Positions 4,239 through 32,415 of a stretch of DNA of 43,000 bases are shown piece by piece. The notes beneath the pieces were generated by a model. That model had not been told where the DNA came from. It did no database searches and was given only the letters and a program-made list of their open reading frames with translations. Within the stretch, counting starts at the first letter, position 1; the number at the start of each line of letters is the position of its first letter. The position numbers and the translations under genes were made by a program. The stretch comes from a virus: positions 1 through 43,000 of the IMG/VR virus record IMGVR_UViG_3300022896_000003. The stretch is one strand, 5' to 3'.

Positions 4239-4239
4239 G

Positions 4240-9823: not shown

Positions 9824-10054
9824 TTACCTTAGCCGTTGTATGGCTTGCTTGGCGGTGCTGTGGGATACTTTAAACTCGTCTGCTAACTGGTAACAAAGTT
9901 CGGATTGGCTCTTGTTGGGGTGCTCTTTTTTAAGTTCCTGGTAGCGGTCGAATAGGTCCGAGCGCATAGGCCAGGCGCAAGAGATAACGCCGTCTTTAAC
10001 CATCTTAAAAACTACTTCTGAGGGAATGCAATATTTATCGGCTAGTCTGCTCAT
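9824..10054 (-). CDS. Helix-turn-helix-like small protein between tape measure and protease
   Basis: A 76-residue basic, helical protein starting MSRLADKYCIPSEVV. Two HTH-like helical repeats are visible: ADKYCIPSEVVFKMVKDG and, near the C-terminus, LADEFKVSHSTAKQAIQRL. The start at 10054 is chosen because its ATG overlaps the tape-measure stop (10051-10053). The fold suggests DNA binding or assembly-chaperone function; a regulator within the morphogenesis operon would be odd, so the role is left open. Confidence 0.6.
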   Translation of the reverse strand: MSRLADKYCIPSEVVFKMVKDGVISCAWPMRSDLFDRYQELKKEHPNKSQSELCYQLADEFKVSHSTAKQAIQRLR

Positions 10055-12030
10055 CGTTTTGATGTTTGTTCCCTGAACTCTACCCGGCGTCCTACCTTCT
10101 GGCCTTCTACCCATGACACGTAAACGGGGGGCTGGTTCTTTATTGCGTTGGCTGTTATTAAAGCGTTCTGAGACGGTTGGGAGTTCTGATTAGTGACAAA
10201 CCCACCATCGGCGTATCCTCGTACCCTGGCTGTTTCTAAAGCGTTTATATGCTGTTTTCCCACCGGACTGTTAACGATGTGTTTGGGTACAACGTATTCA
10301 TCGGCGTGAACTATTCCGACTGCCTGGTATTTAGACCCTGGGCCTGTCCATCCTCCTTCCGCGAACTGTACGCCATTAATTGCTGCGACGTTGGCTAACC
10401 CTTGAGCGATGGCAGCAGCAGCATAAGCCGCACCGATAGCAGGGGATGCGATAGTAGGCGGAACAAAGGCAGCTTCATACGCTTTCGTCGCGGCAGCGTA
10501 GGTAGAAATCAATGCCTGAGCTGTGGCGAAGATCTTGTACTGTGCGCTCTGTTGGTCGAATAAAGAAGCCGCTGAATTAAGGATTGAAATCGTGCTGTTT
10601 AGTTGGGCCTCTTCGATCAGAGTTTTGGCTTGGGCCGCTGCGTTCGCCGCCTGAAGGTCCATCAAATACATCCGCTTATTTAAAGCTAGAATGTCGTTGT
10701 TGATCTTTTCGGTCTGGTTGATACGTATCTGACCCTCGTCAAACATCGCTTGGGTAATGAGCTTCTGCGTGTCTTGAGCGGCAACTACCTCCTCCGGTGT
10801 TTCTCCTGTCCGTTGTCCTCCTCCAAAAGATTGAAGGTTTACCCCTGTAGACAACCTCTTATCAGCAGCGGAAACGCCTTTATTTAAAGCGATCTCCTCG
10901 GCAATAGCCTTATTTAAATTCCGTTGAGCGGTAACATTCTCTGTTAACTTTCCGGTTATTTCTTCTCTTTTATCACTGATTTCAGCCTCCAACTGAGCCA
11001 CATGAAGTTGTGCCTCAAGGTTTTTGTCGTATGCTACCGTCGATCCTTTAACCGCGTCTATCTGTGCTTGGATAACGGTGATCGTTCTTTCTGCCGACCG
11101 TTCCAGAATAGGAGTAATTTCTTTAGATGCCTCAAGTCTTTCTTGCAACGATTTGGTTTCGTCGTCCCTTAACCGTCTGGCTATCTCGGCGCGTCGTTCA
11201 TCCTCTTTGGCAAACCCTTGAGCAAGTCCCCTAGCTATTTCTAGCTGCTTCTGGCGTTGTTGAGCGGCAGCGATAATAGCAGATTCAACCGCAACCCCTT
11301 GGTTTAAAGCAAACAGAAAAGCCCCTGTTAACTGGCTGACAAGTCCTATGCTCTCCTCTCCGTTATTAATGAAGTTTGAAAAAGATTCAGAGAGAATACC
11401 CGTAGCGGCTGCAAGCTGGTTTTGTGCGAACTCTAAATCCCTGGCTCCTGATGCTGAGTTGGCATACAGGGCTACCAATGATCCAAGTATCCCCACAGCA
11501 GCGGTTACCGCACCGTTAACACCTGCAAATTTTGTTGTAAGTCCGTTAACCGATACCCCTGCGACGTCGATGCTTTTGGCGGCTTCTGTGAATTTATCCG
11601 GGTAGTTTCCAATCTGATCTTTGAAGAGTCCAGCTTTCTTGGATGTGTCGCTGATCGTTGCTGAAAGTTGTTTTAACTCCTTCTCAAGCTCCTCAGCGCG
11701 TTTTGCCCCGGCAGCGGTAGACCTGTTTAAATTATCGTACTCTTTTACAAGCTCGGAGGTACGTAGTTTTACCGCGTTACGCGAATTACTCTCCGTAGTC
11801 AGTAACTTATTTAATGTAGCTTTTTGGGCTGTTTCTGCTTTTAAAGACCGTTGTAACTTCTGGTTTGACTCGATGTACTGATCCTCGGAAATCTTACCGG
11901 CTTTATATTCCTTGTTTAAGTCCGCCTGTTCTTTCTTAAGGGCAAGGATTGCTTTCTCAGTTGCAAGTAATTGTTTCTGAGCGTTGCTTTGATCGATCTC
12001 AAGATTTAATATAATCGTTTCCTCTGCCAT
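10051..12030 (-). CDS. Tail tape measure protein
   Basis: A 659-residue protein that sets tail length and is ejected with DNA. Residues 1-150 are an uninterrupted coiled coil (LLATEKAILALKKEQADLNK and similar). A hydrophobic stretch near 170-195 (AAVGILGSLVALYAN) and an Ala-rich segment near 505-555 (AAYAAAAIAQGLANVAAING) fit the membrane-interacting part. The C-terminus has the common FAEGGWTGPG...GIVHADEYVVP motif of Bacteroidota phage tape measures. The length would correspond to a tail of roughly 100 nm if it scales at the usual 1.5 angstrom per residue. Confidence 0.85.
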   Translation of the reverse strand: MAEETIILNLEIDQSNAQKQLLATEKAILALKKEQADLNKEYKAGKISEDQYIESNQKLQRSLKAETAQKATLNKLLTTESNSRNAVKLRTSELVKEYDNLNRSTAAGAKRAEELEKELKQLSATISDTSKKAGLFKDQIGNYPDKFTEAAKSIDVAGVSVNGLTTKFAGVNGAVTAAVGILGSLVALYANSASGARDLEFAQNQLAAATGILSESFSNFINNGEESIGLVSQLTGAFLFALNQGVAVESAIIAAAQQRQKQLEIARGLAQGFAKEDERRAEIARRLRDDETKSLQERLEASKEITPILERSAERTITVIQAQIDAVKGSTVAYDKNLEAQLHVAQLEAEISDKREEITGKLTENVTAQRNLNKAIAEEIALNKGVSAADKRLSTGVNLQSFGGGQRTGETPEEVVAAQDTQKLITQAMFDEGQIRINQTEKINNDILALNKRMYLMDLQAANAAAQAKTLIEEAQLNSTISILNSAASLFDQQSAQYKIFATAQALISTYAAATKAYEAAFVPPTIASPAIGAAYAAAAIAQGLANVAAINGVQFAEGGWTGPGSKYQAVGIVHADEYVVPKHIVNSPVGKQHINALETARVRGYADGGFVTNQNSQPSQNALITANAIKNQPPVYVSWVEGQKVGRRVEFREQTSKR

Positions 12031-20584: not shown

Positions 20585-20609
20585 AAAAAAAACACCGGTC
20601 TTTCCCGGC
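20585..20609 (-). terminator. Short terminator/attenuator before the late operon
   Basis: On the minus strand CCGG (20608-20605), a GAAAGA loop and CCGG (20598-20595) are followed by GTG and eight T (20592-20585). The stem is short (4 bp plus a G-T pair). An upstream CCCGG near 20655 could instead pair with the first arm. It lies between the RHH gene and the HNH gene, 16 bases before the HNH start, so late expression may need readthrough. Confidence 0.5.
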
Positions 20610-20706: not shown

Positions 20707-20859
20707 TTAAACTTTTTGTTTCTTTTTGAACTTCGACTTTTGGATCAAGGCCGTGCGGATGTAATTACTCATACCGATTGATTTGAAGTCTGGTGTTGTA
20801 TCTATTATGTGAGTTTCCAGCTCCTTTTCAATTTTGCTTTGTACTTTACGATCTCTCAT
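20707..20859 (-). CDS. Ribbon-helix-helix (Arc/CopG-like) DNA-binding protein, likely repressor
   Basis: A 50-residue basic protein: MRDRKVQSKIEKELETHI... The first ~10 residues form the beta ribbon (R-K-V-Q-S-K-I), followed by helix A (EKELETHIIDTT) and helix B (GMSNYIRTALIQKSKF) and a Lys-rich tail. Such dimers bind short direct or inverted repeats. Its own promoter region carries two GTAGTAC repeats, and the divergent early promoter has two more, so autoregulation and repression of the early block are the obvious model. It is the only candidate regulator at the divergent junction. Confidence 0.7.
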   Translation of the reverse strand: MRDRKVQSKIEKELETHIIDTTPDFKSIGMSNYIRTALIQKSKFKKKQKV

Positions 20860-20876
20860 TTCCTTTATTCGTTTCA

Positions 20877-20909
20877 CGAAGGTAGTACCAAGTAGTACAC
20901 ATATCCAAA
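20877..20909 (-). promoter_or_regulatory. Leftward promoter with two operator repeats
   Basis: On the minus strand a TTTG box (20909-20906), 21-nt spacer and TACCTTCG (20884-20877; one mismatch to TAnnTTTG). Two GTAGTAC repeats at 20882-20888 and 20892-20898 (10-bp period) cover the spacer and the -7 box. It drives the RHH gene, 18 bases downstream. Confidence 0.65.
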
Positions 20910-21189
20910 TGTTTAGTTACATTTATTTTCTGCAAAGACTACAATTGCGGAGCAAAGGAAACGGTAATGAAGAAAGGTACAATAAAGAAGTTAACCCCCT
21001 ACCCCCTGAGAGAGTCAACCTCTATTATGTATGACCTTGCGTCGCAATAGGCGTCTAAAGTTAGATGAGGCTGTCAACCCTAAGAAGTTACCATCGGTAT
21101 TGACATTTAACACGTGCCTGATAGTTTCACTCTAATCAGGACTTATTTACCCTTGAACACGGGGAGCGTTATTTGGTATGGCTGTAAAT

Positions 21190-21235
21190 AACAAAAACCA
21201 GCCCCGAGATTGCGCCTCAAAACTGGTTTTGTTTT
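21190..21235. terminator. Hairpin with T tract
   Basis: AACAAAAACCAG (21190-21201) pairs with CTGGTTTTGTT (21223-21233) with one bulge, followed by further T. In the plus direction it looks like a rho-independent terminator, but no gene precedes it on this strand, so it may end a leader or antisense transcript coming from the control region. Confidence 0.5.
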
Positions 21236-21238
21236 CGA

Positions 21239-21273
21239 TATCGGAGTCATCAGCGCAATTGACATCTCCGATC
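21239..21273. promoter_or_regulatory. Second hairpin in the control region
   Basis: ATCGGAG (21240-21246) and CTCCGAT (21266-21272) form a perfect 7-bp inverted repeat around a 19-base loop, adjacent to the preceding hairpin and 45 bases before the early promoter. No T run follows. Could be a binding site or an RNA element. Confidence 0.4.
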
Positions 21274-21317
21274 TATTCAACAAAGTTAAAAATATTTTAA
21301 AGATTTATCCAAAAAAA

Positions 21318-21349
21318 CTTGACAGGTAGTACAAAAGGTAGTACGTTTG
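21318..21349 (+). promoter_or_regulatory. Main rightward early promoter with two operator repeats
   Basis: CTTG (21318-21321), 20-nt spacer and a perfect TAnnTTTG box TACGTTTG (21342-21349), as expected for the Bacteroidota primary sigma factor. Two GTAGTAC repeats, 21326-21332 and 21338-21344 (12-bp period), lie in the spacer and touch the -7 box. The first early gene starts 41 bases downstream. Confidence 0.8.
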
Positions 21350-21390
21350 TTAAGTCAAATCACTACAGAGAAATCTAAACAGAAAGAAAA

Positions 21391-21618
21391 ATGAGCTTTG
21401 AAGTTGAGAAAATAAAGTATCGCAACAAATCGCAACTATCTTATGTGGATTGCTGCATGAGACTGATCGATGAATCACGTCCTTTTGAAGCGATGACCGA
21501 CGAAGATCTGGATAGCATTTACCGTGTCGCTACGGACCGATGGGCATTTCATTTGACTAGACAGGGATATATCGACACTCTTAACACTGAACGCGCTAAA
21601 CGCATTACACAATCATGA
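21391..21618 (+). CDS. First early gene, hypothetical protein
   Basis: A 75-residue protein starting MSFEVEKIKYRNKSQ, preceded by an A-rich leader (AGAAAGAAAA). Predicted alpha-helical with an acidic segment (MTDEDLDSIYRVATDRW). Being first behind the strongest early promoter, it is a candidate host-takeover or regulatory protein, but no family is recognised. Confidence 0.65.
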   Translation: MSFEVEKIKYRNKSQLSYVDCCMRLIDESRPFEAMTDEDLDSIYRVATDRWAFHLTRQGYIDTLNTERAKRITQS

Positions 21619-21731
21619 CACCAGAACTCCAAGCCGCAATTAACCGCATCCATCGCCGCAACATCTTATGGATAGTTGTAGACTCTATCTTGATATTAGG
21701 GGGTATGGTGCTTTTGTATATAGCTTTTTAA
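21615..21731 (+). CDS. Tiny single-pass membrane protein
   Basis: A 38-residue frame starting MTPELQAAINRIHRRN, then one transmembrane helix (ILWIVVDSILILGGMVLLYI). Its ATG overlaps the stop of the first early gene. Positive residues before the helix predict N-in topology. Function unknown. Confidence 0.55.
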   Translation: MTPELQAAINRIHRRNILWIVVDSILILGGMVLLYIAF

Positions 21732-21751
21732 ACAACAAAAACACAGCAGAT

Positions 21752-21955
21752 ATGAAAACACAACCGAAAGTCACCTGCCCTTTTTGCGAAGGCACTGGTT
21801 GTTGTAATTGTGAGTACTCAGGAAAAGTGCCTTATGGTGAAGGTTGCATTTTTGCATCTGAATCCGAGGCCATCAACCACGATCCTGGAATTTCATACTT
21901 TGATTTAAAGTTGAGCAAGGCGCTAGTCTCTCCCCCTTCGTCAGTAGATAAATAA
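21752..21955 (+). CDS. Small zinc-ribbon-like protein
   Basis: A 67-residue protein starting MKTQPKVTCPFCEGTG, with CPFC...CCNC pairs typical of a zinc ribbon or rubredoxin-like knuckle. A longer in-frame form would begin inside the preceding gene; the ATG at 21752 follows an A-rich leader and is preferred. Function unknown. Confidence 0.6.
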   Translation: MKTQPKVTCPFCEGTGCCNCEYSGKVPYGEGCIFASESEAINHDPGISYFDLKLSKALVSPPSSVDK

Positions 21956-21961
21956 AAAAAT

Positions 21962-22234
21962 ATGAAATACTTACCGCTTTACTATGAATGGCTCGAAAAG
22001 GGGGAGATTCCACTAAAGGAAACTAGTCATCTATATGGTGGCCTATGTTCAATATTCCATACTGGCAAAAGGCGTAATAAATTTCTTTCGCTATTAGCTC
22101 CTGATTACGATCATGATTCTTATTGGGGTATTGAATTCCATGAGTGGCACACTATTAAAAACGCCGAGACGGATTTCACCCCGTTACGTCAAACAATTGT
22201 ACTATTTATGGCCGCAATGAACGGCGAGTTGTAG
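21962..22234 (+). CDS. Hypothetical early protein
   Basis: A 90-residue protein starting MKYLPLYYEWLEKGEIP, rich in aromatic and His residues (YWGIEFHEWHTIK). No domain recognised. Preceded by an AATAAAAAAAT leader. Confidence 0.6.
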   Translation: MKYLPLYYEWLEKGEIPLKETSHLYGGLCSIFHTGKRRNKFLSLLAPDYDHDSYWGIEFHEWHTIKNAETDFTPLRQTIVLFMAAMNGEL

Positions 22235-22254
22235 TCTCTAATCACAAAGAAAGC

Positions 22255-22470
22255 ATGGAAACAAAAACACATAAAATAATAAAAATGGAAAGAACATACG
22301 AATTTAAGATAGGGCAAAAAGTTAGAATGGTGGACCCTGATGATGGTGAAATGGTCTACGGCATTGTTACCGACAAAACCAGAGATTCAGTATTTATCAA
22401 ATGGGTAGATCTGAGCGAACCTACTGAACATACTCGTGATGAGTTTCCACAAATCAAACTTGGTATGTGA
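22255..22470 (+). CDS. Small beta-rich (KOW/SH3-like) protein
   Basis: A 71-residue protein. An alternative start is Met11 (22285, MERTYEFKIGQKVRMV). The segment IGQKVRMVDPDDGEMVYGIV and VFIKWVD have the spacing of a small SH3-like barrel. Function unknown. Confidence 0.55.
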   Translation: METKTHKIIKMERTYEFKIGQKVRMVDPDDGEMVYGIVTDKTRDSVFIKWVDLSEPTEHTRDEFPQIKLGM

Positions 22471-22516
22471 TGGAAACAAAAGAAATCGTTAAGCAGAACG
22501 AAACCGTAATACGGAT

Positions 22517-22909
22517 ATGTCTAAAAAAAGTAAAGTAACAAAAGTAACCAAGTTCGACAAGGTCGATAGCTATGGTAACATCTCTTTTTCAATTGAACTT
22601 GAAAATGGAGACAAGGGATTTTTCAGTACGAAACATGCAGACCAGACAAAGTTTGTCGTCGGTGTAGAGGCTGAATATAACATTGAAGAAAAGACTTCTC
22701 AGAAAGGTGGGGTGTATTATAAAATTACCTTGCCTCAATCCGAGAAACCTTTTACACCTGGTGGTCGCCCTCCTGTTGATCCTAAGGTGCAGATGATAGG
22801 ATTTGCTATGTCATATACCAAAGATTTGATAGTTGCGGGTAAGGTTGACATGAAGGAGCTATCGGTAACATTTGACGTAATCTATAACGAAATGACTGGA
22901 AAACTATGA
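22517..22909 (+). CDS. Hypothetical protein with possible OB fold
   Basis: A 130-residue protein starting MSKKSKVTKVTKF. The first 80 residues are a strand-rich basic domain (SFSIELENGDKGFFSTK, GVYYKITLPQ) that could be an OB fold, then a linker GGRPPVD and a helical C-terminus. With the next two genes, it is the best candidate for phage DNA metabolism, possibly single-strand DNA binding. Not a confident family call. Confidence 0.55.
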   Translation: MSKKSKVTKVTKFDKVDSYGNISFSIELENGDKGFFSTKHADQTKFVVGVEAEYNIEEKTSQKGGVYYKITLPQSEKPFTPGGRPPVDPKVQMIGFAMSYTKDLIVAGKVDMKELSVTFDVIYNEMTGKL

Positions 22910-23382
22910 CACCAGATACACCAATTTCAGCACTACGGTTGATGCCGTCAAAGACTTCCGAAATAGCCAGCTTCTCAAAAGGTGTAATTGAAAGCGTTCA
23001 ATCCGGGCATACAGATCCTATTGAAGTGCTGGTGATGCTCCGGTCGTTTGCAAAGGCATCTGAATTGATTCTGGATTGCATTAAACCGAACCTTTCCGCT
23101 GAGACTGATAAATACTCAGAGAAAACTATTGAAGCCTTTGGGGCCAAAATAGAGAAGGCTGAAGTAGGTACGAAGTACGATTTTAGTAAATGTGGTGATC
23201 CTACTTTTGAGCGGTTAGAGGTTGATTTCAATAAGGCAAAGAGCGATCTTGATGAAAGGAAGGAATTCCTTAAAACGATAAAGGTGCCCACCCCGATTGG
23301 AGATACAGTTACAGGTGAACTTGTGACTGTATATCCTCCAATCAAAACTAGTACATCGGGTTATAAAGTTACGCTAACATGA
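22906..23382 (+). CDS. Hypothetical helical protein
   Basis: A 158-residue protein starting MTPDTPISALRLMPSKT. Helical N-terminal half (VIESVQSGHTDPIEVLVMLR), a central segment of Lys/Glu and a strand-rich C-terminus (DTVTGELVTVYPPIKT). Overlaps both neighbours by 4 bases. It belongs to a recurrent three-gene set in Bacteroidota phages, role unknown. Confidence 0.6.
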   Translation: MTPDTPISALRLMPSKTSEIASFSKGVIESVQSGHTDPIEVLVMLRSFAKASELILDCIKPNLSAETDKYSEKTIEAFGAKIEKAEVGTKYDFSKCGDPTFERLEVDFNKAKSDLDERKEFLKTIKVPTPIGDTVTGELVTVYPPIKTSTSGYKVTLT

Positions 23383-23732
23383 ACGGAATTCTAGTTGGAT
23401 GTACAGTAGAAAAGATTTACACGATGAAGGATCGGAGTGTAAAAATTATCTTGGAAACTTCCGAAATTTCATCAGGCAAGGCCGGTGAACTATTTGCGCT
23501 CATGAACCAAGCCGCTACGGTGTATATTAAATCCGCTGAAATAAACCAAAAGGAGATCAACCAGGTAGACGCAATTGAGGTAGACTTAGGCGGCAAGACT
23601 CCAAGCAAGCGTATGCGCAACGTACTATTCCGGTGCTATGAGCAGGACAACGAAGGGTTTGCGGAGTTCGATAGTTATTACAAATCACGGATGGAGAAAT
23701 TTATTACTGAACTTAAAAACAACCTGCCATGA
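23379..23732 (+). CDS. Hypothetical protein of the possible DNA-metabolism trio
   Basis: A 117-residue protein starting MNGILVGCTVEKIYTMKD, with an N-terminal beta domain (SVKIILETSEIS) and a C-terminal segment SKRMRNVLFRCYEQ ... YKSRMEKFITELK which resembles conserved phage proteins of unknown role in Bacteroidota. Overlaps neighbours by 4 bases. Confidence 0.55.
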   Translation: MNGILVGCTVEKIYTMKDRSVKIILETSEISSGKAGELFALMNQAATVYIKSAEINQKEINQVDAIEVDLGGKTPSKRMRNVLFRCYEQDNEGFAEFDSYYKSRMEKFITELKNNLP

Positions 23733-24004
23733 AAAAACCACTTCTTTCCTCCGAGGATAAAATTTTCCTCAAATGCGAACAAAACCATGACCTCCCCGAC
23801 TCCATTGACTTCACGCGCTTCTTAATCAAGTCGCTGATCGTCTGCATCCTTATCGCCGGGGCTGCTTCCTACGCTGTTATCTGGCTCTCAGGACCGGTTA
23901 TAAACAAGATACCGGACTACATGAGGTTCCGGGTGTTCTGCTGGTTTATGTGCTTTGTGGCTATCGGTGTTTTGGTGTGGGTGGTTAAAGGGTTGAGGAA
24001 ATGA
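23729..24004 (+). CDS. Two-pass membrane protein
   Basis: A 91-residue protein with two hydrophobic helices, about 28-50 (LIVCILIAGAASYAVIW) and 66-85 (VFCWFMCFVAIGVLVWVV). Short basic ends. No signal peptide. Could be an early membrane effector such as an exclusion protein; not near the lysis genes. Confidence 0.6.
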   Translation: MKKPLLSSEDKIFLKCEQNHDLPDSIDFTRFLIKSLIVCILIAGAASYAVIWLSGPVINKIPDYMRFRVFCWFMCFVAIGVLVWVVKGLRK

Positions 24005-24279
24005 AAGTACTGAGTCTTGTTTTAAAAGGTAAATGGTTCCGAATGATTGAGTCGGGTATAAAGACCGAGGAATACCGAAATATTACCAATTATTGGCAGA
24101 AAAGACTTTCGAAATATACATTCGATGCGGTTGTATTCTATCATGGTTATTCGAAAGGTAGGCCTGAAATGACATTTAGAATAGAATCTATCATTCATGG
24201 AGATTTTGGAAAGACAGAATGGGGCGCTGAATCTTGCACAAGATACTTTGTAATTAAACTAGGAGAACGTATAGCATGA
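24001..24279 (+). CDS. ASCH-domain protein
   Basis: A 92-residue ASCH-like beta barrel: MKVLSLVLKGKWFRMIESGI is the conserved first strand/helix, followed by KTEEYRNITNYWQKR and the strand FDAVVFYHGY. ASCH domains bind RNA or modified nucleotides, and phage examples are common. Translationally coupled to the genes on both sides. Confidence 0.75.
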   Translation: MKVLSLVLKGKWFRMIESGIKTEEYRNITNYWQKRLSKYTFDAVVFYHGYSKGRPEMTFRIESIIHGDFGKTEWGAESCTRYFVIKLGERIA

Positions 24280-24623
24280 AACTCGTAAACGGCAAATTCT
24301 ACGAAGGTGACAAGGTCGTGCCGCTTGAATTCGGAAACAAAGAGCAGATACGATTGATTCGTAAGGCAGATGAAAAGATTGAAAGCCTAAAAGGTGATGG
24401 TTTATTCATAGAAACTCATATTCACCCAAACCAAAAAGGTATATGGGTTGTGTGGGCTGAGTTCGAATGCGTTTGCGGTGTTAGCTTTCAAATGTCTTCT
24501 CCCTGTGATGATGGTGAAGACGCCGATGCTATCTCAGGAACATACAAATGTAAGTCCTGTAAGAAGAAATACATAGTAGACGAAGATCCAGATATGGGAG
24601 AATTTTATATCAAATTCGCATGA
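24276..24623 (+). CDS. Zinc-ribbon protein
   Basis: A 115-residue protein starting MKLVNGKFYEGDKVVPL. CVCGVS and CKSCKKKY near residues 66-96 make a Cys4 zinc ribbon with an acidic insertion between the pairs. N-terminal half is strand-rich. Function unknown. Confidence 0.6.
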   Translation: MKLVNGKFYEGDKVVPLEFGNKEQIRLIRKADEKIESLKGDGLFIETHIHPNQKGIWVVWAEFECVCGVSFQMSSPCDDGEDADAISGTYKCKSCKKKYIVDEDPDMGEFYIKFA

Positions 24624-24784
24624 AACACACTCCCACCCCAAAGAAGCAGCAACACAAAAGCGCTGTAAGAGATCAGGAAATGAACGGATTTAGGTACGAT
24701 CTACGATTTTGGAGTTCTACCGATGTTAAGGACTGGTATCAGGGACTTTCAAAAGTAGCAAAGAAGTCGAAGCCACTATTCTAA
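24620..24784 (+). CDS. Small basic protein
   Basis: A 54-residue frame starting MKHTPTPKKQQHK, Lys/Gln-rich, with RYDLRFWSSTDVKDWYQGL in the middle. Its ATG overlaps the previous stop, and it is followed directly by a terminator, so it ends the first early transcription unit. Confidence 0.55.
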   Translation: MKHTPTPKKQQHKSAVRDQEMNGFRYDLRFWSSTDVKDWYQGLSKVAKKSKPLF

Positions 24785-24786
24785 CC

Positions 24787-24860
24787 CCTCTCCTCACCAC
24801 CCGAAACGACCTGGGAGGAAGTACGGGAGAACGGAGACGCCGGGGTGAGGGAGGGTTTTT
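24787..24860 (+). terminator. Terminator after the first early unit
   Basis: CCTCTCCTCACC (24787-24798) pairs with GGTGAGGGAGGG (24844-24855), with one mismatch, and five T follow. The loop of 45 bases is long and may fold itself. It ends the unit that began at the early promoter. Confidence 0.6.
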
Positions 24861-24873
24861 AAACGATAAAGCT

Positions 24874-25080
24874 ATGAGAAAGATCAGGGAACGAGAATTA
24901 ACACCGCCGTTTATGACGAAGGTACAATTGGAGACAGGATCGAAACTACCGTCTATAAACGATTTGGCGACCTGTAGCGCCCTACTTCAAAAGAAGATAC
25001 TCAAGAGTAAGAACAAGGGTAAAAAGCATCTCATGAAGGAAATACGGCAGGAAATTGAATGGTTAATTAATGCTTTATGA
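24874..25080 (+). CDS. Small basic hypothetical protein
   Basis: A 68-residue Lys-rich helical protein starting MRKIRERELTPPFMTK. It begins just beyond a terminator, so it depends on readthrough or an unseen promoter. Overlaps the GNAT-like gene by 4 bases. No family recognised. Confidence 0.55.
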   Translation: MRKIRERELTPPFMTKVQLETGSKLPSINDLATCSALLQKKILKSKNKGKKHLMKEIRQEIEWLINAL

Positions 25081-25424
25081 TAACAACACACGCACTTGAA
25101 TTCGAAGCAAGGCCTTGGGAGCCTTCTTTATCGATACGCGGTCAAAGAGACTATGCGGAATTCAGGGTAGGCACCTGTGAGGGCTTGTGGTCAACCATTG
25201 ACGATGCATATCAAATCTTGGTAATAACTAATCATGCCCCTGGCAATGGTCACCTGACAGATGTATTTGAATGGTTTGAGAACTCGTGTAAACGGGATGG
25301 CAAGCACCTCAGGATTTTAGAGGTATGGAACCAAGGATTTCGTAAACACCTGATCGAGAAGCGAGGATTTAAGCCAGACGGAGGGGATAACTTGATTAAG
25401 AAATTGAAGGCAATGAAAAAATAA
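25077..25424 (+). CDS. GNAT-like acetyltransferase domain protein
   Basis: A 115-residue protein. APGNGHLTDVFEWFENSCKR (about 59-78) resembles GNAT motif A (acetyl-CoA pyrophosphate loop and helix), and NQGFRKHLIEKRGFK (about 89-103) resembles motif B. It is shorter than the usual 140-180 residues, lacking part of the N-terminal strands. Might modify a host or phage protein. Moderate confidence only. Confidence 0.55.
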   Translation: MITTHALEFEARPWEPSLSIRGQRDYAEFRVGTCEGLWSTIDDAYQILVITNHAPGNGHLTDVFEWFENSCKRDGKHLRILEVWNQGFRKHLIEKRGFKPDGGDNLIKKLKAMKK

Positions 25425-25469
25425 TCCTCCTTTTTGTTTGGAGAATCTGAGAAGAGAAGTAAATTGGTC

Positions 25470-25500
25470 TTTGAATTGTAACTGATTCGCTCTACCTTTG
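25470..25500 (+). promoter_or_regulatory. Strong promoter for the structured RNA
   Basis: TTTG (25470-25473), 19-nt spacer and TACCTTTG (25493-25500) match the Bacteroidota -33/-7 consensus exactly. No start codon with a good frame follows; the structured segment begins within 25 bases. It drives the predicted non-coding RNA. Confidence 0.8.
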
Positions 25501-25506
25501 TATCGG

Positions 25507-25725
25507 TTTCTGAAGAAATTGTATAAAAGCCTTAGTGCAGCGGGAGTAGAGCCCCAACGTGCTGAGGCTTTTATCTTTAACGGCCTTCCGCTCTACAGGG
25601 CCACTCTCAGCAGTCAGCATAGCCGATCCAAGGTAAGAAGTCCCCGCTATAACACTTGTAAGACCTTAGCGCGGCATCCTGTTAAATCATGGCAAGCGTT
25701 CGCAACTTGACAGCCCCATGAGCCA
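25507..25725 (+). ncRNA. Predicted structured RNA with pseudoknot, family unknown
   Basis: ATAAAAGCCT (25523-25532) pairs with AGGCTTTTAT (25565-25574), with inner GCA/TGC and GGG/CCC pairs. The apical loop GTAGAGC (25546-25552) is complementary to GCTCTAC at 25590-25596, making a seven-pair pseudoknot. Further helices are CGCTA/TAGCG (about 25648-25674) and CATGG/CCATG (25688-25692 with 25716-25720). The transcript would be about 210-220 nt. No long open frame follows an ATG. I do not recognise it as tmRNA, 6S, RNase P or a riboswitch. Confidence 0.6.
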
Positions 25726-25767
25726 AAACAACAACTATACGGAAACTTCAGGTGATTGAATTTGTGT

Positions 25768-25817
25768 CAGGAAACTGGTTTACTTCCTTTAGGGGTAGGG
25801 GTAAACTTGTTTTCTGG
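25768..25817. repeat. Imperfect inverted repeat downstream of the RNA
   Basis: CAGGAAACTGGTTTAC (25768-25783) and GTAAACTTGTTTTCTGG (25801-25817) are inverted copies with mismatches around a G/T-rich loop. No T tract follows. Could be the 3' end or processing site of the upstream RNA. Confidence 0.4.
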
Positions 25818-25896
25818 CCTTCGTCCTTCCGTTTTCTTAGGCTCTTGAATATCACTTTTTTTAAATACTGAAAATAAATATTGATACATAGGTACC

Positions 25897-25920
25897 GTAT
25901 TATACGTATTATACGTATAC
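25897..25920 (+). promoter_or_regulatory. Operator of two ATACGTAT palindromes
   Basis: GTATTATAC is repeated at 25897-25905 and 25906-25914 and is followed by GTATAC. This creates two ATACGTAT palindromes (25902-25909 and 25911-25918) at 9-bp spacing, directly before an RHH gene. Such short palindromes are typical of RHH autoregulatory operators. A weak TTG-N19-TACGTATT promoter could overlap. Confidence 0.6.
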
Positions 25921-25926
25921 TTGTGT

Positions 25927-26079
25927 ATGAGAAAAGAAATAGACTTAACAAAAGAGCAATTGCGTGATATAAAAATACTCGCTGCTCACGACGGTACGAA
26001 TGCAAAAAACTATATCGAAACATTAGTTGCAATTCATATCGAGAAAGTAAGATCAGGGACGCGCAACATTTTAAAATAG
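25927..26079 (+). CDS. Ribbon-helix-helix-like protein, second copy type
   Basis: A 50-residue protein starting MRKEIDLTKEQLRDIK. The short strand (KEIDL) followed by two helices (TKEQLRDIKILAAHD and NAKNYIETLVAIHIEKVR) matches the RHH pattern. It lies six bases after the ATACGTAT palindromes, suggesting autoregulation. It heads an operon with a 183-residue helical protein. An antitoxin-like role is possible but the downstream gene does not resemble a known toxin. Confidence 0.6.
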   Translation: MRKEIDLTKEQLRDIKILAAHDGTNAKNYIETLVAIHIEKVRSGTRNILK

Positions 26080-26087
26080 TGTTTTTT

Positions 26088-26639
26088 ATGGGAACTCCTT
26101 TACATCAAATTGTTAAGAATCATCCTGAGCATGCAAGTACAATTGCTAAGCGTCAGGAGATAATTTCAAGGTTGAATGACGCACAGTTAAAACTTTCAGC
26201 ACAAATTAAAAACGGACCTGAAAGGCATCGACTGATAATAGAAAAAGATGAATTGGTCTCAGAGTTGAGAGAAATTAACAAAGACATAAGACAGAACGGT
26301 GCAAATGTTGCTTCCTTTTTTATGGAGGTTGTTACCGAATCGTTACCGGACTCTGTACGTCATCTTGTTTTGCATGAAGCTGATCGTCGTCAAAAGGGGG
26401 AACCTCCTAAAAGAGTATCACTCTATACAGAAGAAGAACAAAACGCACTGGATTACCATGTCCAACTTGATCGTCAATACAAGGAATTGCGAAAGAAGGT
26501 TTTTGAAATAAAAAAATGGATCGACGAGAAAATGCCGAATCTTAAAGGTTCATTGAATCAAAATGAGTATATGGTAAGGGCTCAGATAACAAAAGCATAC
26601 AGCAAGATTTTGCAAATACTCAATGATAAACAATCATGA
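26088..26639 (+). CDS. Helical hypothetical protein
   Basis: A 183-residue almost entirely helical protein starting MGTPLHQIVKNHPEH. Coiled-coil segments lie about 20-60 (QEIISRLNDAQLKLSAQIK) and 115-150. A GTG nine bases upstream overlaps the previous stop and is an alternative start. It lies in an operon with an RHH protein; unknown function. Confidence 0.6.
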   Translation: MGTPLHQIVKNHPEHASTIAKRQEIISRLNDAQLKLSAQIKNGPERHRLIIEKDELVSELREINKDIRQNGANVASFFMEVVTESLPDSVRHLVLHEADRRQKGEPPKRVSLYTEEEQNALDYHVQLDRQYKELRKKVFEIKKWIDEKMPNLKGSLNQNEYMVRAQITKAYSKILQILNDKQS

Positions 26640-26812
26640 AAATAAAAGTTGAATTAACAAAGGATCAGAGGCAAGAGATAAAACACGCTGCCCATGATTA
26701 TGCTAATCCTAAGACTAAAGTAATACAAAGTTACTGTCGTCTGCATGATGCTTTCCAAGCAGGTGCTTTATTTGCTATTCAATCAATCAGGGATAAAAAA
26801 CTCATCATATGA
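26636..26812 (+). CDS. Small hypothetical protein related to the RHH N-terminus
   Basis: A 58-residue frame starting MKIKVELTKDQRQEIK. The opening resembles that of the RHH protein at 25927 (LTK-Q---IK-AAHD in both), then diverges (QAGALFAIQSIRDKK). ATGA overlaps on both sides. Possibly a duplicated or partner DNA-binding protein. Confidence 0.55.
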   Translation: MKIKVELTKDQRQEIKHAAHDYANPKTKVIQSYCRLHDAFQAGALFAIQSIRDKKLII

Positions 26813-27417
26813 AAGACTTCGACGACTTCTACATTCAATTAATCGAAGACCAAGTATGGTTTGAAAACGCGAGTTTACATCACAAGCCAGAAACCTTTGA
26901 ATCCGTAGCCCGGAAAGTATGGACGTTGGGGCTTGCTGACTTTGAAGCGTTCAAATCCTGCCCTATGCGGGAACACCGGATGCACGTGTACAACAAGGTA
27001 AGCAAGCTACCACATGACAAACCTAAAGTAGATTGGGTTGCTAAAGCGTTACAGGAACAGGAAGCGGAGAAGAAAGCTAAGCAAGAAAAGGAAGAACCCC
27101 CGCTAGTCCGTGGTAGTGAGCAGTACTTGAAACGTACACAGGAATTTCTTGATGCCCTGCGAGCTTGTGAAGAGCCTAAGCGTGTAGCTCCTGTATCTGC
27201 AAAAGAAAGAATGGATGCTGAAAACTTAAGACCGAAGCCGTTTGACATTCGGGAACCAAGCCAGGAAGAAAAGATCCGCGCCGCTCAGAATCATTTAGCG
27301 ATGGCATTGAAGGCTAGGACAAAGATGTTCCGTGAGAAGTATCCGGACGGAACGGTGAAGGAGCTGCAAAAATATCTAAAGCAATTTAAGAACATCGACA
27401 ATCCGTTTAATCTTTAA
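26809..27417 (+). CDS. Hypothetical protein, charged helical
   Basis: A 202-residue protein starting MKDFDDFYIQLIEDQVW. A folded N-terminus (to about 70), a Glu/Lys-rich linker (QEQEAEKKAKQEKEE), then a helical C-terminus. No domain recognised. The largest protein of the early block. Confidence 0.65.
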   Translation: MKDFDDFYIQLIEDQVWFENASLHHKPETFESVARKVWTLGLADFEAFKSCPMREHRMHVYNKVSKLPHDKPKVDWVAKALQEQEAEKKAKQEKEEPPLVRGSEQYLKRTQEFLDALRACEEPKRVAPVSAKERMDAENLRPKPFDIREPSQEEKIRAAQNHLAMALKARTKMFREKYPDGTVKELQKYLKQFKNIDNPFNL

Positions 27418-27421
27418 TGAT

Positions 27422-27667
27422 ATGCCAAAACTAAAAGGACTCCCAGCGACAGTGCCCATTCATGAAGTATACAATGCGTTCCGGTTTGGATTTTACGCGG
27501 GGTGTAAATTTTCCCAACAGAGCACATCAAATGATGATAACAGTTATTTGAACATTAAACGACTTGAGTATCTTAAAAAGAGATTCAATTTCGAGCCACC
27601 GGGAGAAATGTGTAACCCACAACCATACAAAGGATTTACGAAGAATGGATCGAACTCCAAAATTTAA
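27422..27667 (+). CDS. Hypothetical protein
   Basis: An 81-residue protein starting MPKLKGLPATVPIHEVY, with an amphipathic N-terminal helix (NAFRFGFYAGCKFSQ) recalling many small phage early proteins. No family. Confidence 0.5.
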   Translation: MPKLKGLPATVPIHEVYNAFRFGFYAGCKFSQQSTSNDDNSYLNIKRLEYLKKRFNFEPPGEMCNPQPYKGFTKNGSNSKI

Positions 27668-27673
27668 TGAAGG

Positions 27674-28003
27674 ATGAAAGACTATAAACAAATATTTAGG
27701 TCTGAACAAATGGAAGGAAAGACCATTGCAAAGGCGAATGAGTCCAACGGAAATTTATATCTGATTTTTACTGACGATACATTCGTGTGCATCGCCCCAG
27801 GCGAAGAGGATGTAGAAGTCGCGTATTGGGACATGAATCTTCTGCCTACTTATCGAAACGTGTTTGATTTAAACCAGGCAGGTTTTATTGAAGATGACGA
27901 ATTCGAAAGACTTCAAAAAATGTTCGTCGAGCAGGAGCAGAAAGAACAGGAGATAAAGGACCGTGAAGCCCTGGCGCGATTGAAAGCGAAGTACGAGAAA
28001 TGA
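27674..28003 (+). CDS. Hypothetical protein
   Basis: A 109-residue protein starting MKDYKQIFRSEQMEGK. The N-terminal beta part (GNLYLIFTDDTFVCIAPGEE) is followed by a coiled-coil tail rich in Glu, Gln and Lys. Similar small phage proteins of this layout exist but function is unknown. Confidence 0.6.
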   Translation: MKDYKQIFRSEQMEGKTIAKANESNGNLYLIFTDDTFVCIAPGEEDVEVAYWDMNLLPTYRNVFDLNQAGFIEDDEFERLQKMFVEQEQKEQEIKDREALARLKAKYEK

Positions 28004-28052
28004 AGGACTAATTTTTAACCCTGCTCTCTCTGAGGGCGCAAAGAAAAGAAAG

Positions 28053-28190
28053 ATGAGAAAACTAATGAAATTATTTCGAATCATATGTGGATACTGCGGT
28101 GATGACATTGACGAAAAGGGTCAAGACAACATGTCCACAACAAACAGTCCCATGTGCGAAGACTGTCATAAGCTAATAAAACAGGCATAA
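28053..28190 (+). CDS. Tiny zinc-knuckle protein
   Basis: A 45-residue frame starting MRKLMKLFRIICGYCG, with CGYC and CEDC pairs 26 residues apart, so a four-Cys zinc site. Preceded by AAGAAAAGAAAG. Unknown role. Confidence 0.55.
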   Translation: MRKLMKLFRIICGYCGDDIDEKGQDNMSTTNSPMCEDCHKLIKQA

Positions 28191-28193
28191 ACG

Positions 28194-28421
28194 ATGAACC
28201 AAAAAACGTTTGACAATTTCAACAAGAACCTAAACGCTCAACTTGAGAAAGGCGAGGAAGGGCATCAGAAATTAATCGCGATGATTCAGAAAGAATTCGA
28301 GCATTTGCATTATCAGCCTTTCCGCGCATCCGTGGAGCACTTTCTTGAAACCGGGACTGTAAACGGAAGTCTGTTGCTTGCTATCCTATCTGTAATGCAA
28401 AAACATCAAGAGAAAAGATGA
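28194..28421 (+). CDS. Small helical hypothetical protein
   Basis: A 75-residue protein starting MNQKTFDNFNKNLNAQL, mostly helical. Overlaps the next gene by 4 bases. No family recognised. Confidence 0.55.
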   Translation: MNQKTFDNFNKNLNAQLEKGEEGHQKLIAMIQKEFEHLHYQPFRASVEHFLETGTVNGSLLLAILSVMQKHQEKR

Positions 28422-28627
28422 TAACACACTCGGAAGGAATAACCACAATTCAGTGCGACAAGTGCAAAGTTACTTCCTTGGCTGGATCATCTTGGTACAA
28501 CGAGGTGTTTTTTCAAGAGGGATGGCTTTTACATAAGGGGCGTAAATACGAACATCTGTGCCGCGAATGCCTAAGCCCGAAAGCGCGCCGAGCAATGGAC
28601 TTCGTAAAGGAAAAGTTTGGAATGTGA
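28418..28627 (+). CDS. Small zinc-finger-like protein
   Basis: A 69-residue protein with CDKC (13-16) and CREC (about 48-51) separated by an aromatic-rich loop, then a helical tail (ARRAMDFVKEKFGM). Likely a Cys4 zinc-binding fold. Role unknown. Confidence 0.6.
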   Translation: MITHSEGITTIQCDKCKVTSLAGSSWYNEVFFQEGWLLHKGRKYEHLCRECLSPKARRAMDFVKEKFGM

Positions 28628-28657
28628 TTTTTTGAACCAACAAAACCATAAAGGAAG

Positions 28658-28954
28658 ATGAAAGATCTAGAGCAAGAGGCAAGTAAAGCCGCGAACGAAG
28701 AAACCGGCTATGAACTCAGTGAAACACACAGGATTTTCAAAAAGGGTTACATCGCCGGAGCGCTGGCAGAGCGAAAGAAACTTATCGATGAGGTTATTTC
28801 CGAGATTAAAAACCTTGAAAACTATACGCTTTGGTGGGACGACGATGTAGCCAACGGTCAGGCGGTTCAGGTTGCAAAAGGCGCTTACAAATGGCTTTAC
28901 TCTAAAATAGAACCAATGAAATTAGAGAGCATCACACCTAAAGATAACCCATGA
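28658..28954 (+). CDS. Hypothetical protein
   Basis: A 98-residue protein starting MKDLEQEASKAANEETG. The segment HRIFKKGYIAGALAERKK (about 24-41) is a common motif in small phage proteins of unknown function, and YTLWWDDDVANG follows. Its stop overlaps the start of the candidate spanin. Confidence 0.6.
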   Translation: MKDLEQEASKAANEETGYELSETHRIFKKGYIAGALAERKKLIDEVISEIKNLENYTLWWDDDVANGQAVQVAKGAYKWLYSKIEPMKLESITPKDNP

Positions 28955-29373
28955 AAACCATCGCCGCAACCCTCGCCATACTTCTAGGACTAAGCAACTG
29001 CGGTCCAGCGTCTAAACTTCGCCGGGCTGAAAGACTCATTAACCAGGCCGAACAAGCCGGTTACACCTGGAAGATTGACACGGTGACCGTTAAAGTACCT
29101 GTAATTGTCACAGAAACAAGGCTAGATTCGATTTTGGTCGTAAAACCGGGCGATACCGTGGTTTTGACTAAAGATCGCTTAAAAGTCAAATACGTGCGTT
29201 TAGGGGCTGACACCGTTTTCCTGGAAGCTGAGTGCGCTGCCGACACGATTTACAAGGAAGTCCCGGTCCGGATTGAAAAGATGATCGCCGCAAAGTGCAA
29301 TCCTTGGTGGTGGCTGTTAGTTGCGGCTATAGTAGGTGTCGTTTTTGGAATGTTTTTGATGAGGCGAAAATAA
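28951..29373 (+). CDS. Candidate unimolecular spanin (lipoprotein with C-terminal membrane anchor)
   Basis: A 140-residue protein. A lipoprotein signal MKTIAATLAILLGLSNC (lipid-attached Cys17), a strand-rich periplasmic region with repeated D-T-V/D-S-I segments (43-100), and a C-terminal transmembrane helix (about 118-136) ending in RRK. This outer-lipid plus inner-membrane anchor layout defines u-spanins, which fuse the two membranes in the last step of lysis. It is not next to the amidase but in the early block on the opposite strand, so its timing is puzzling. Confidence 0.6.
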   Translation: MKTIAATLAILLGLSNCGPASKLRRAERLINQAEQAGYTWKIDTVTVKVPVIVTETRLDSILVVKPGDTVVLTKDRLKVKYVRLGADTVFLEAECAADTIYKEVPVRIEKMIAAKCNPWWWLLVAAIVGVVFGMFLMRRK

Positions 29374-29394
29374 ATACTAACAACCATGCATCTT

Positions 29395-29402
29395 TTACGT
29401 AA
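29395..29402. promoter_or_regulatory. TTACGTAA palindrome before an RHH gene
   Basis: A perfect 8-bp palindrome with the ACGT core, 20 bases before the RHH start. TATATTTA at 29411-29418 resembles a -7 box, though no good -33 box precedes it. Possible autoregulatory operator. Confidence 0.4.
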
Positions 29403-29422
29403 GTCGTGCGTATATTTACAGC

Positions 29423-29578
29423 ATGGAAAAAATAAGAAAAGAAGTTTATCTCGACCCCGCTGTAGTTGCGGCGCTTGAAACAATAGCCGGAAGCCAGAAC
29501 AGGAAAACAAAAAACTTGATGGAAAATGTTTTGATCTCATTCGCTTTGAACAACGCAATTAAATCCAAAAAGAAATGA
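29423..29578 (+). CDS. Ribbon-helix-helix-like protein, third
   Basis: A 51-residue basic protein starting MEKIRKEVYLDPAVVAALE. Strand KEVYL, helix A (DPAVVAALETIAG), helix B (RKTKNLMENVLISFALNNA) fit the RHH fold. Its TGA overlaps the next start. Probably an autoregulated transcription factor of the second half of the early block. Confidence 0.6.
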   Translation: MEKIRKEVYLDPAVVAALETIAGSQNRKTKNLMENVLISFALNNAIKSKKK

Positions 29579-29781
29579 AAACCCTCACAGAAACCGTAAT
29601 GGAAAACATTTTCTGCATCAACAACGACCGAGAAAGCATCGTGCTAAAAGGTCATGAGATCACAACACAGTGCCATCCTATTGACTTTCACACGGAGTTT
29701 AAGGTAAGGTCAGGAGATGACGCTAAATGGTTTGATACCCTGGAAGAATCTATTGATTACATTAACGAACTGGAAGCATGA
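29575..29781 (+). CDS. Hypothetical protein
   Basis: A 68-residue acidic protein starting MKTLTETVMENIFCINN, with alternating strands (SIVLKGHEITTQ) and a C-terminal helix (LEESIDYINELEA). Overlaps neighbours by 4 bases. No family recognised. Confidence 0.55.
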   Translation: MKTLTETVMENIFCINNDRESIVLKGHEITTQCHPIDFHTEFKVRSGDDAKWFDTLEESIDYINELEA

Positions 29782-30281
29782 ACAAAACAAAACACACCCC
29801 CGGACCTTGGAAACTCCATGAATGGGAAGACGGATGCTATGATGTATTACCTAACAACGGTGAAAGGCTTCATGTTTTAGCTATATTAAGATTGTGCTAT
29901 AACAAAGCCGATGCCCAACTTATTGCAGACGCGCCCCGGTTAGCCGAAGAGAACGCAAAGCTGAAAGAGGAATTAGAAGAAAGCAAGTATGAAACAGTTC
30001 AATGTACCTATTGCGGTCCTGGGGGCACTATACAAAAAGGCGATGATGAATTAATATGTCCTCATTGTCATGGCAGTGAAAAATTGAAAGTATTGCGCTG
30101 GGAACCTAAAGAACTCTCAGACCTCAAACAGATCAACGCCGAGTTAGTGAAATGCCTGAAATCATTTGTGGATGATGCTGAGGCATTGATGCAAAACGCT
30201 GGGCATAATACATCTTTTCCGATTAGAGACGCTAAAAAATTAATCAATGCTACGAACGATAATACCACAAAGATCGCCTGA
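29778..30281 (+). CDS. HTPGPW-type phage protein with zinc ribbon
   Basis: A 167-residue protein whose N-terminus (KHTPGPWKLHEWEDGCYDV) and DAQLIADAPRLAEEN are the hallmark of a widespread phage family of unknown role. It is followed by a Cys4 motif (CTYCGPGG ... CPHCHG), DnaJ-like in spacing, and a helical C-terminus. The zinc module is inserted in the usual coiled-coil portion. Confidence 0.7.
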   Translation: MNKTKHTPGPWKLHEWEDGCYDVLPNNGERLHVLAILRLCYNKADAQLIADAPRLAEENAKLKEELEESKYETVQCTYCGPGGTIQKGDDELICPHCHGSEKLKVLRWEPKELSDLKQINAELVKCLKSFVDDAEALMQNAGHNTSFPIRDAKKLINATNDNTTKIA

Positions 30282-30291
30282 AAGAAAAGGT

Positions 30292-30426
30292 ATGTGTCGC
30301 CGTTGTGTGTTTAGTGACAAGGCGCAACAACAGACGTGCGGTTTCTATGGATCTAAATCAATGTTAGTCGCCAGAAATTGCGCAGGACCATTTGAATCAG
30401 CAATCAATAAAGCCAAAGCACAATGA
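30292..30426 (+). CDS. Small Cys-rich protein
   Basis: A 44-residue frame starting MCRRCVFSDKAQQQ, with Cys at 2, 5, 16 and 30. Its TGA overlaps the next ATG. Possibly a zinc knuckle; unknown role. Confidence 0.5.
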   Translation: MCRRCVFSDKAQQQTCGFYGSKSMLVARNCAGPFESAINKAKAQ

Positions 30427-30617
30427 AAGACATTGAAAAACTAACACTATCGGAACTTCGTGGACTCATTGCCTGCGCTCGTTATCAGCTTCGTTCATGT
30501 GATTTAACCTACACGGAAATAGCAAAACGTCTAGATCAGATACAGGAATTACACGCTGAGATTCGACGCCGTAAGATTGTGAACATTACTCCAGCACCTT
30601 TAAATTTATCCATCTAA
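30423..30617 (+). CDS. Small helical protein
   Basis: A 64-residue protein starting MKDIEKLTLSELRGLI. One amphipathic helical hairpin (LTYTEIAKRLDQIQELHAEIRRR), basic. No family. Confidence 0.5.
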   Translation: MKDIEKLTLSELRGLIACARYQLRSCDLTYTEIAKRLDQIQELHAEIRRRKIVNITPAPLNLSI

Positions 30618-30628
30618 AAAATAACTAT

Positions 30629-31102
30629 ATGACGAACATTGAAAAGTTTAACGACACGGTTTCTATCCTTGTGAATGCGTATCTGAATAACGAACTTGAA
30701 CATGGTAATTGTGCCGCATGTGCAGTGGGTAATATTATTGCATCAAAAAGGGGCGTTAAACCTGTTCTTTCTTGCGAAATGGTAGCTAATGGGGGACGAT
30801 ACAGATTTTCAGATGGCAGCTTCCCGGCGTGGATAGATGTTTTTATAACAAGAACCAGATTCTCCAAACAAATATTCGTGCTCGATGGATACATTGGTGA
30901 GGCTAAAGAAGAGATTGATTTAACTGGATATTCTGTTTTTGACCTTGCAAAAATAGAGTTTGCTTTTGAGCGTGCACTGAATCAAGATACAGAGGAGAGG
31001 ATGTTTGAAGGGTTAATGAACTGCGTTGATGTACTTGCTGAAATCCATGGTGTACCTCTCACAACAACCGAATCAGCTAAGCAATTATTTGTACGCGCAT
31101 GA
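30629..31102 (+). CDS. Hypothetical protein
   Basis: A 157-residue protein starting MTNIEKFNDTVSILVNAY. A Cys/Ala segment (GNCAACAVGNIIASKRG, about 26-42) and a long C-terminal helix (FDLAKIEFAFERAL) are visible. Similar proteins occur in other Bacteroidota phages, function unknown to me. Confidence 0.6.
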   Translation: MTNIEKFNDTVSILVNAYLNNELEHGNCAACAVGNIIASKRGVKPVLSCEMVANGGRYRFSDGSFPAWIDVFITRTRFSKQIFVLDGYIGEAKEEIDLTGYSVFDLAKIEFAFERALNQDTEERMFEGLMNCVDVLAEIHGVPLTTTESAKQLFVRA

Positions 31103-31209
31103 CCACCGAATTTACCATGTACTTTATCTGGACAGCTATAGGGCTAGTGGCTGTAACAAACTGCTGGATTTTTCAGGATTTTACTTTGCAGGAAAACGAG
31201 AAAAGATGA
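31099..31209 (+). CDS. Tiny membrane protein
   Basis: A 36-residue frame with a central transmembrane helix (MYFIWTAIGLVAVTNCWIF) and an acidic C-terminus. ATGA overlaps on both sides support it. Function unknown. Confidence 0.5.
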   Translation: MTTEFTMYFIWTAIGLVAVTNCWIFQDFTLQENEKR

Positions 31210-31589
31210 GAGAGCTTAAATTCCGCGCTTGGGACAACGTAGATAAAAAGTGGTTGTTCGGATATGACTACAATGGACTTGGCGGCTTCAACCTGCTAGG
31301 AGAAGTGGTTTTGCTTGGAGAACTATCTAGCATCAGCTTAGATCGCCTGAAGGATATTGAAATAGATCAGTTCACCGGGCTACAGGATAAAAACTTGGTT
31401 GATATTTACGAGGGTGATGTTATTAAATGGTGCTTTGTTAACACTGGTGACCTGGATGAAAAAGAATATACGGAAGTTGTGGAGTGGAATGAATGTGGAT
31501 TTTTTCTTGATGGAGGCGCACCATTAACGGTTGCTATGGACGACTGTGAAGTAATCGGAAACATACATCAAAACCCTGAGCTTATATGA
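31206..31589 (+). CDS. YopX-family protein
   Basis: A 127-residue protein starting MRELKFRAWDNVDKKW, the YopX signature. IDQFTGLQDKN (about 58-68) and VDIYEGDVIKW (about 70-80), then VEWNECGFFL and VIGNIHQNPEL complete the family pattern. YopX proteins are common in phages of Bacillota and Bacteroidota and of unknown role. The start is set by an ATGA overlap; longer in-frame extension upstream is not needed. Confidence 0.85.
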   Translation: MRELKFRAWDNVDKKWLFGYDYNGLGGFNLLGEVVLLGELSSISLDRLKDIEIDQFTGLQDKNLVDIYEGDVIKWCFVNTGDLDEKEYTEVVEWNECGFFLDGGAPLTVAMDDCEVIGNIHQNPELI

Positions 31590-31807
31590 GAACAGAATTT
31601 ATCAAAGAACTAACAGGCCGATCTTTTGAAGATTACTCTAGTGCCGAGCTCGAAATACTTTTGGATGCTATCCGGTGCCGAATGGTTGAACTGGAAAAAA
31701 AAGGATGGGAACCTCTCGAAACTTATAACGTCTTGCAGCAATTCCGCACCAAGATAGTTGAGGCCAAGATTTTAGTTCTCCAAAGGGAAAAGGTTTTAAA
31801 CGGGTAG
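31586..31807 (+). CDS. Hypothetical helical protein
   Basis: A 73-residue protein starting MRTEFIKELTGRSFEDY. Helical throughout (AELEILLDAIRCRMVELEKK). Overlaps YopX by 4 bases. No family. Confidence 0.55.
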   Translation: MRTEFIKELTGRSFEDYSSAELEILLDAIRCRMVELEKKGWEPLETYNVLQQFRTKIVEAKILVLQREKVLNG

Positions 31808-31810
31808 GGT

Positions 31811-32050
31811 ATGAAAGAGAAAATTGGATTATTGTGTATTGGGTTCATATCTGGATGTATTTGCATAGCCGCAATTATGTCAGGAATGGAAATCACGGAA
31901 TACCAAAAAGCCGTGCGAGAAAGAGATGCGTATAATGAATTATACTTAAAATGTGAGCGAGATAAAGCTTACAAAGAAACAGAAGAAACGATTGAAGACA
32001 TAAACAAAACCATTAGAAGTATACAAAAAGAATTAGGAATAAAGCAATGA
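31811..32050 (+). CDS. Membrane-anchored coiled-coil protein
   Basis: A 79-residue protein with an N-terminal transmembrane segment (IGLLCIGFISGCICIAAIM) and a coiled-coil C-terminus (about 30-78). The layout resembles small Rz-like or exclusion proteins, but no clear assignment is possible. Confidence 0.55.
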   Translation: MKEKIGLLCIGFISGCICIAAIMSGMEITEYQKAVRERDAYNELYLKCERDKAYKETEETIEDINKTIRSIQKELGIKQ

Positions 32051-32211
32051 AACTCCTCATCCTCCTTCGTCTCTACATCTTATCCAAAAGATCAGAGCAT
32101 CCAGCACACAGAAAGATCTATTACAACGCTATTCAAGAGATACTAAACGAGAAAGAGTCGTTTGAATGGAAGGTGAAGGTGTTTAAATTGACGCAAGTTT
32201 GGCCTTTATGA
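32047..32211 (+). CDS. Small basic protein
   Basis: A 54-residue frame starting MKLLILLRLYILSKR, with a hydrophobic start and a basic, helical remainder. ATGA overlaps with both neighbours. Unknown. Confidence 0.5.
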   Translation: MKLLILLRLYILSKRSEHPAHRKIYYNAIQEILNEKESFEWKVKVFKLTQVWPL

Positions 32212-32399: not shown

Positions 32400-32415
32400 C
32401 AGCCACTAAAAGCTA

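Follow-up and report, generated by a model that had tools for sequence, protein, structure and literature searches.

In the 43,000-nucleotide stretch of viral DNA analysed here (the window), two divergent promoters of Bacteroidota type each contain a pair of exact GTAGTAC copies, four copies between them. Judged from sequence, these pairs are likely to be the operators of an autoregulated ribbon-helix-helix (RHH) repressor that binds both of them and turns down the early block of genes together with its own gene. The finding is real, and the core of its interpretation is probably right. The early promoter, TTG-N20-TACGTTTG (21319-21349, plus strand), reads into an early block at 21391-32409 (plus strand), delimited by the layout of its small ORFs and including a gene at 22517-22909 that is conserved in relatives. 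The leftward promoter, TTG-N21-TACCTTCG (20877-20908, minus strand), belongs to the probable-repressor gene, an ORF of 50 residues (MRDRKVQSKIEKELETHIIDTTPDFKSIGMSNYIRTALIQKSKFKKKQKV; 20707-20859, minus strand) with a match to the protein encoded at the same place in the related locus L109. Both promoters resemble the Bacteroidota -33/-7 consensus. Since the leftward promoter has one mismatch in its -7 box and a spacer one base longer, it looks weaker than the early one. Directly 3′ of the repressor gene lies a terminator-like hairpin with a T run (20594-20609, minus strand) which, with a gap of 137 bp, keeps the gene apart from the neighbouring HNH gene.

Between the divergent promoters the minus strand also contains two strong hairpins of 15-16 pairs (20986-21023 and 21194-21230), which may represent a small RNA or a leader; upstream of both, at 21281-21312, lies another sequence resembling a leftward promoter. 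A search of the gap between the promoters gave no Rfam match, and phage records contained no DNA similar to the switch region. The Pfam and PHROG families listed for the early block include no recognised replication enzyme, neither a DNA polymerase nor a helicase nor any other. A run of genes at 1748-6807, between those for portal and capsid, resembles glycosyltransferases and methyltransferases of the FkbM/TylF type.

The predicted operator copies occupy equivalent places in the two promoters. On the leftward side, OL1 (20882-20888) overlaps the -7 box and OL2 (20892-20898) lies 10 bp away in the spacer; on the early side, OR1 (21338-21344) overlaps the -7 box and OR2 (21326-21332) lies 12 bp away in the spacer. 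The earlier note had described the pairs at these positions and spacings, overlapping the spacer and -7 region, along with the early promoter and the 50-residue ORF, and all of this proved exact. The downstream copy stands in the identical register relative to the -7 box in both promoters, its TAC forming the start of that box, so those three bases do not count as independent evidence. GTAGTAC is a near-palindrome, GTA-N-TAC, which reads alike on both strands except at its centre base and would therefore fit a symmetric dimer. No description of it as a known operator was found in the literature searched.

This arrangement is not what random sequence would give. The window contains seven copies of GTAGTAC against 3.0 expected, a count of at least seven being reached in none of 100 shuffles, and the three copies outside the promoters (2673, 15790 and 17669) are singletons within ORFs. 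Only two close pairs exist, one per divergent promoter, and a search for relaxed GTANTAC pairs elsewhere in the window found none. A GTAGTAC pair appeared in none of 300 simulated first-order Markov windows, and a paired 7-mer common to both promoter regions in one of 5000 shuffles of those regions. The search of the rest of the genome that the earlier note had proposed thus came out in favour of its reading. Scanning IMG/VR for GTAGTAC pairs followed by NTTTG gave 16 loci, not far from the dozen or so expected by chance on a rough estimate that itself rests on an assumed collection size, and the scan was therefore not used as proof. A tighter promoter pattern gave four loci, against none for a scrambled control.

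The conservation in relatives on which the earlier note had staked its proposal was found in L004, whose TerL is 87% identical to that of the window and which keeps both site pairs. This contig carries TTGACAGGTATTACAAAAGGTAGTATGTTTA (L004:60-89), in which 28 of the 30 bases of the early promoter are retained with both sites in place, as GTATTAC at the position of OR2 and GTAGTAT at that of OR1; in the early spacer, 19 of the 20 positions are identical to those of the window. The opposite strand, a short way upstream, has a leftward sequence resembling a promoter, in which GTAGTAT and GTAATAC are spaced 12 bp from each other. Spacer identity elsewhere is partial (13 positions in L005 and 12 in L111) and at background in most other relatives. 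Besides the terminase and structural genes, L004 and the window align in the switch region only at the early promoter, and the flanking early DNA of L004 does not align to the window. Because the contig stops at the switch and seems to be rearranged, the regulator cannot be read from it; a search for an overlapping contig that would extend past the switch returned only L004 itself. In this contig (L004:1-95 and L004:380-400) the early promoter and the beginning of the early gene run straight into the HNH gene, all in one orientation, as would result from a join made in assembly or from a rearrangement.

The 50-residue protein has no match in Pfam (E up to 10), in a PDB sequence search or in a Foldseek fold search, and no homologue in IMG/VR or in phage records. 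An AlphaFold2 monomer consists of two helices and no strand with pLDDT 67-74, the models resting on 1-4 sequences with almost no alignment and being of low confidence. The protein has a G-x-S turn (G29-M30-S31) preceding helix 2, a helix of RHH type (GMSNYIRTAL), and shares with RelB the conserved G-x-S/T/N turn (PMC2812701). The protein from the corresponding position in L109 aligns with it from end to end (shuffle p = 4e-4), with a BLASTP E of 9e-5 for the one pair and identity at 10 of 18 positions in helix 2, and itself resembles RHH_1 weakly (E 0.0055, below the cut-off). The same shuffle test gave no signal against nine other proteins from this position or against two reference RHH proteins. 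It is mainly the 18-residue match in helix 2 that suggests an RHH assignment, and the protein is probably of this fold; the earlier note, which had called it RHH-like, gains from the presence of an RHH-like relative in the same place. No toxin gene was recognised beside the gene.

The position of this gene proved to be a regulator slot in related phages, which is the most interesting extension of the finding. About 25 related loci were found through TerL and the early gene at 22517-22909, and the slot could be placed in twelve distinct loci, the window and 11 related phages. It holds a small leftward gene with the HNH-terS-terL side on one flank and the divergent early block on the other. Its products in the 11 relatives mostly resemble DNA-binding proteins of the Arc/RHH, MerR-like HTH or XRE kinds: an Arc homologue in L111 (Pfam E 5.8e-7, above the cut-off; PDB pArc 1e-5), the RHH_1-like protein of L109, weak RHH candidates in L012 and L106, MerR-like HTH_17-type proteins, below the cut-off, in L005, L008, L014, L102, L105 and L108, and an XRE protein in L104 (HTH_3 2.6e-10). 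Regulator and HNH gene overlap by four bases in L008, L012, L014 and L108, so in these phages the regulator heads the packaging operon.

The early promoters of nearly all relatives show TTG-N~20-TAnnTTTG or a near match, with spacers that mostly differ; in relatives with other slot proteins, such as L008 and L014, the spacers are mostly unlike that of the window. In some of these phages a word of their own is common to the two promoters, AATGATATTA in L111 and GGTAGAAAG in L102, and L104 has copies of TAAACTA, among them the palindrome TAAACTATAGTTTA. Across the twelve phages, the longest word common to the two promoters of one phage exceeds that common to promoters of different phages (sum 88 vs 78, p = 0.014). 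For most single loci the word is not significant, significance being reached only in the sum, and the exchange of operators is therefore argued from the family rather than from each phage; the cases of operator sharing other than the window are individually not strong. None of the relatives found combines this protein with these sites.

The early promoter and that of the regulator thus contain the same predicted operator, the arrangement by which an autoregulated divergent phage switch is recognised in sequence. The 50-residue protein would form an RHH dimer, and each GTA-N-TAC pair would hold two such dimers side by side. Since the pairs sit over the -7 box and between the -33 and -7 elements, bound protein would block RNA polymerase at both promoters, repressing the early block from 21391 onward and, by negative feedback, its own gene. 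With sites in both promoters, the likeliest function is the one predicted in the earlier note, in which the protein represses its own gene and the early block alike; in a phage without a recognised integrase, this would probably serve timed shut-off or dosage control of the early genes.

Arc of phage P22 is an RHH repressor of about 50 residues, two dimers of which bind neighbouring half-sites over a promoter. The window protein is similar in size and has paired sites over a promoter, and the slot of L111 encodes a true Arc homologue; however, the window protein matches neither the Arc Pfam family nor Arc in the PDB, and its sites repeat a palindromic 7-mer in direct orientation. F55 of SSV1 is a very small virus-coded RHH protein that acts on tandem repeats in the early promoters and its own (PMC5569661). 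The window shares with it a very small viral protein, here a probable RHH, and tandem sites in the early and own promoters, whereas SSV1 has an archaeal host, TATA/BRE promoters and repeats of the form ATAGATAG, and a lysogeny role has been shown for F55 but not for the window protein. SvtR of SIRV1, likewise a small viral RHH repressor of its own and other viral genes (PMC5569661), has the role predicted here, but belongs to an archaeal virus and acts about 80 nt upstream through longer, imperfect inverted-repeat sites. In E. coli, RelB is an RHH autorepressor at relO, where palindromic 12-bp half-sites place two dimers 12 bp apart on one face of the DNA (PMC2812701); RelB is, however, part of a toxin-antitoxin pair, unlike the window gene, which has no recognised adjoining toxin gene. 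By analogy, the window switch would work most like F55 of SSV1 and P22 Arc. The kind of switch is familiar, and the window locus is a new example of it, with relatives that carry different repressors in the same place.

It is unlikely that some other protein, from host or phage, binds the GTAGTAC pairs while the 50-residue protein has a different role. This alternative draws on GTA-N-TAC pairs at promoters of unrelated viral contigs, near which no RHH gene was confirmed. In one set, probably Bacteroidota phages, they lie over the -7 box of TTG-N-TAnnTTTG promoters (L086, L088, L094, L132:3624-3653, L133:1164-1193 and L134:6020-6049); in another (L083, L084, L087, L089, L092 and L097; viral, most contigs mutually homologous), two to three GTAGTAC copies at 11-14 bp stand just upstream of TATAAT promoters, which are sigma-70-like. 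However, a search for paired sites with the -7 box came up empty in 296 Bacteroidota genomes, as did one for the full promoter form in 148, which leaves no sign of a host regulon; the slot gene of most relatives encodes a likely DNA-binding protein while the spacer varies between phages; and the window has no other recognised regulator among the families shown, with no HTH_3 match and no other transcription regulator among the 25/37 Pfam families listed. A 96-residue gene between the head protease and tape-measure genes (9824-10114, minus strand) has an HTH-looking C-terminal end and is a possible late regulator. That the sites are merely unusual promoter sequence or a chance duplication, with no regulator involved, is highly improbable: the membership of the downstream TAC in the -7 box lowers the surprise somewhat, but chance pairs in both promoters are very unlikely, and L004 keeps the spacer while most other relatives with the same promoter elements differ in it.

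A repressor of lysogeny or of a carrier state, taking a cI-like decision and allowing persistence without a recognised integrase, is a rather improbable reading. Its precedents are F55, an RHH regulator of lysogeny that works on tandem repeats at early promoters (PMC5569661), and L104, which combines an XRE repressor in the slot with an integrase in one record. That integrase is the only one among the records tested: searches for a tyrosine integrase were negative for the window and for nine relatives, and neither an integrase nor a serine resolvase or ParA turned up in the window record of 43 kb or in five other relatives of about 40-49 kb, records which may be incomplete. The combination of an XRE repressor pair and an integration module that marks a cI/Cro-type switch is likewise missing from the window record. 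The earlier note's description of a phage without a recognised integrase thus holds for this record, but the decision it had considered, read as one for lysogeny, gains no support. With no integrase, resolvase, ParA or HTH_3 match in the window, early-gene shut-off by the small repressor is favoured over a lysogeny decision.

To our knowledge, the control of early transcription in Bacteroidota phages has been little described. The host of the window phage is probably a member of the Bacteroidota, and the locus offers a specific, testable candidate repressor whose four defined sites lie over -33/-7 promoters of Bacteroidota type; the comparison across the family adds that both the type of regulator and the promoter spacers vary among related phages. 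Tentatively, and with some doubt, a family of integrase-less Bacteroidota phages could carry an exchangeable control cassette, with the slot itself fixed, the fold of its small repressor (RHH, MerR-like HTH or XRE) changing, and the operators in both divergent promoters swapped along with the repressor. If so, the cassette would resemble the immunity regions of temperate phages while serving early shut-off or superinfection control in virulent phages. If the predicted binding is true, the locus would yield a compact repressor-promoter pair for Bacteroidota, as well as an instance of immunity-like module exchange in phages without a recognised integrase.
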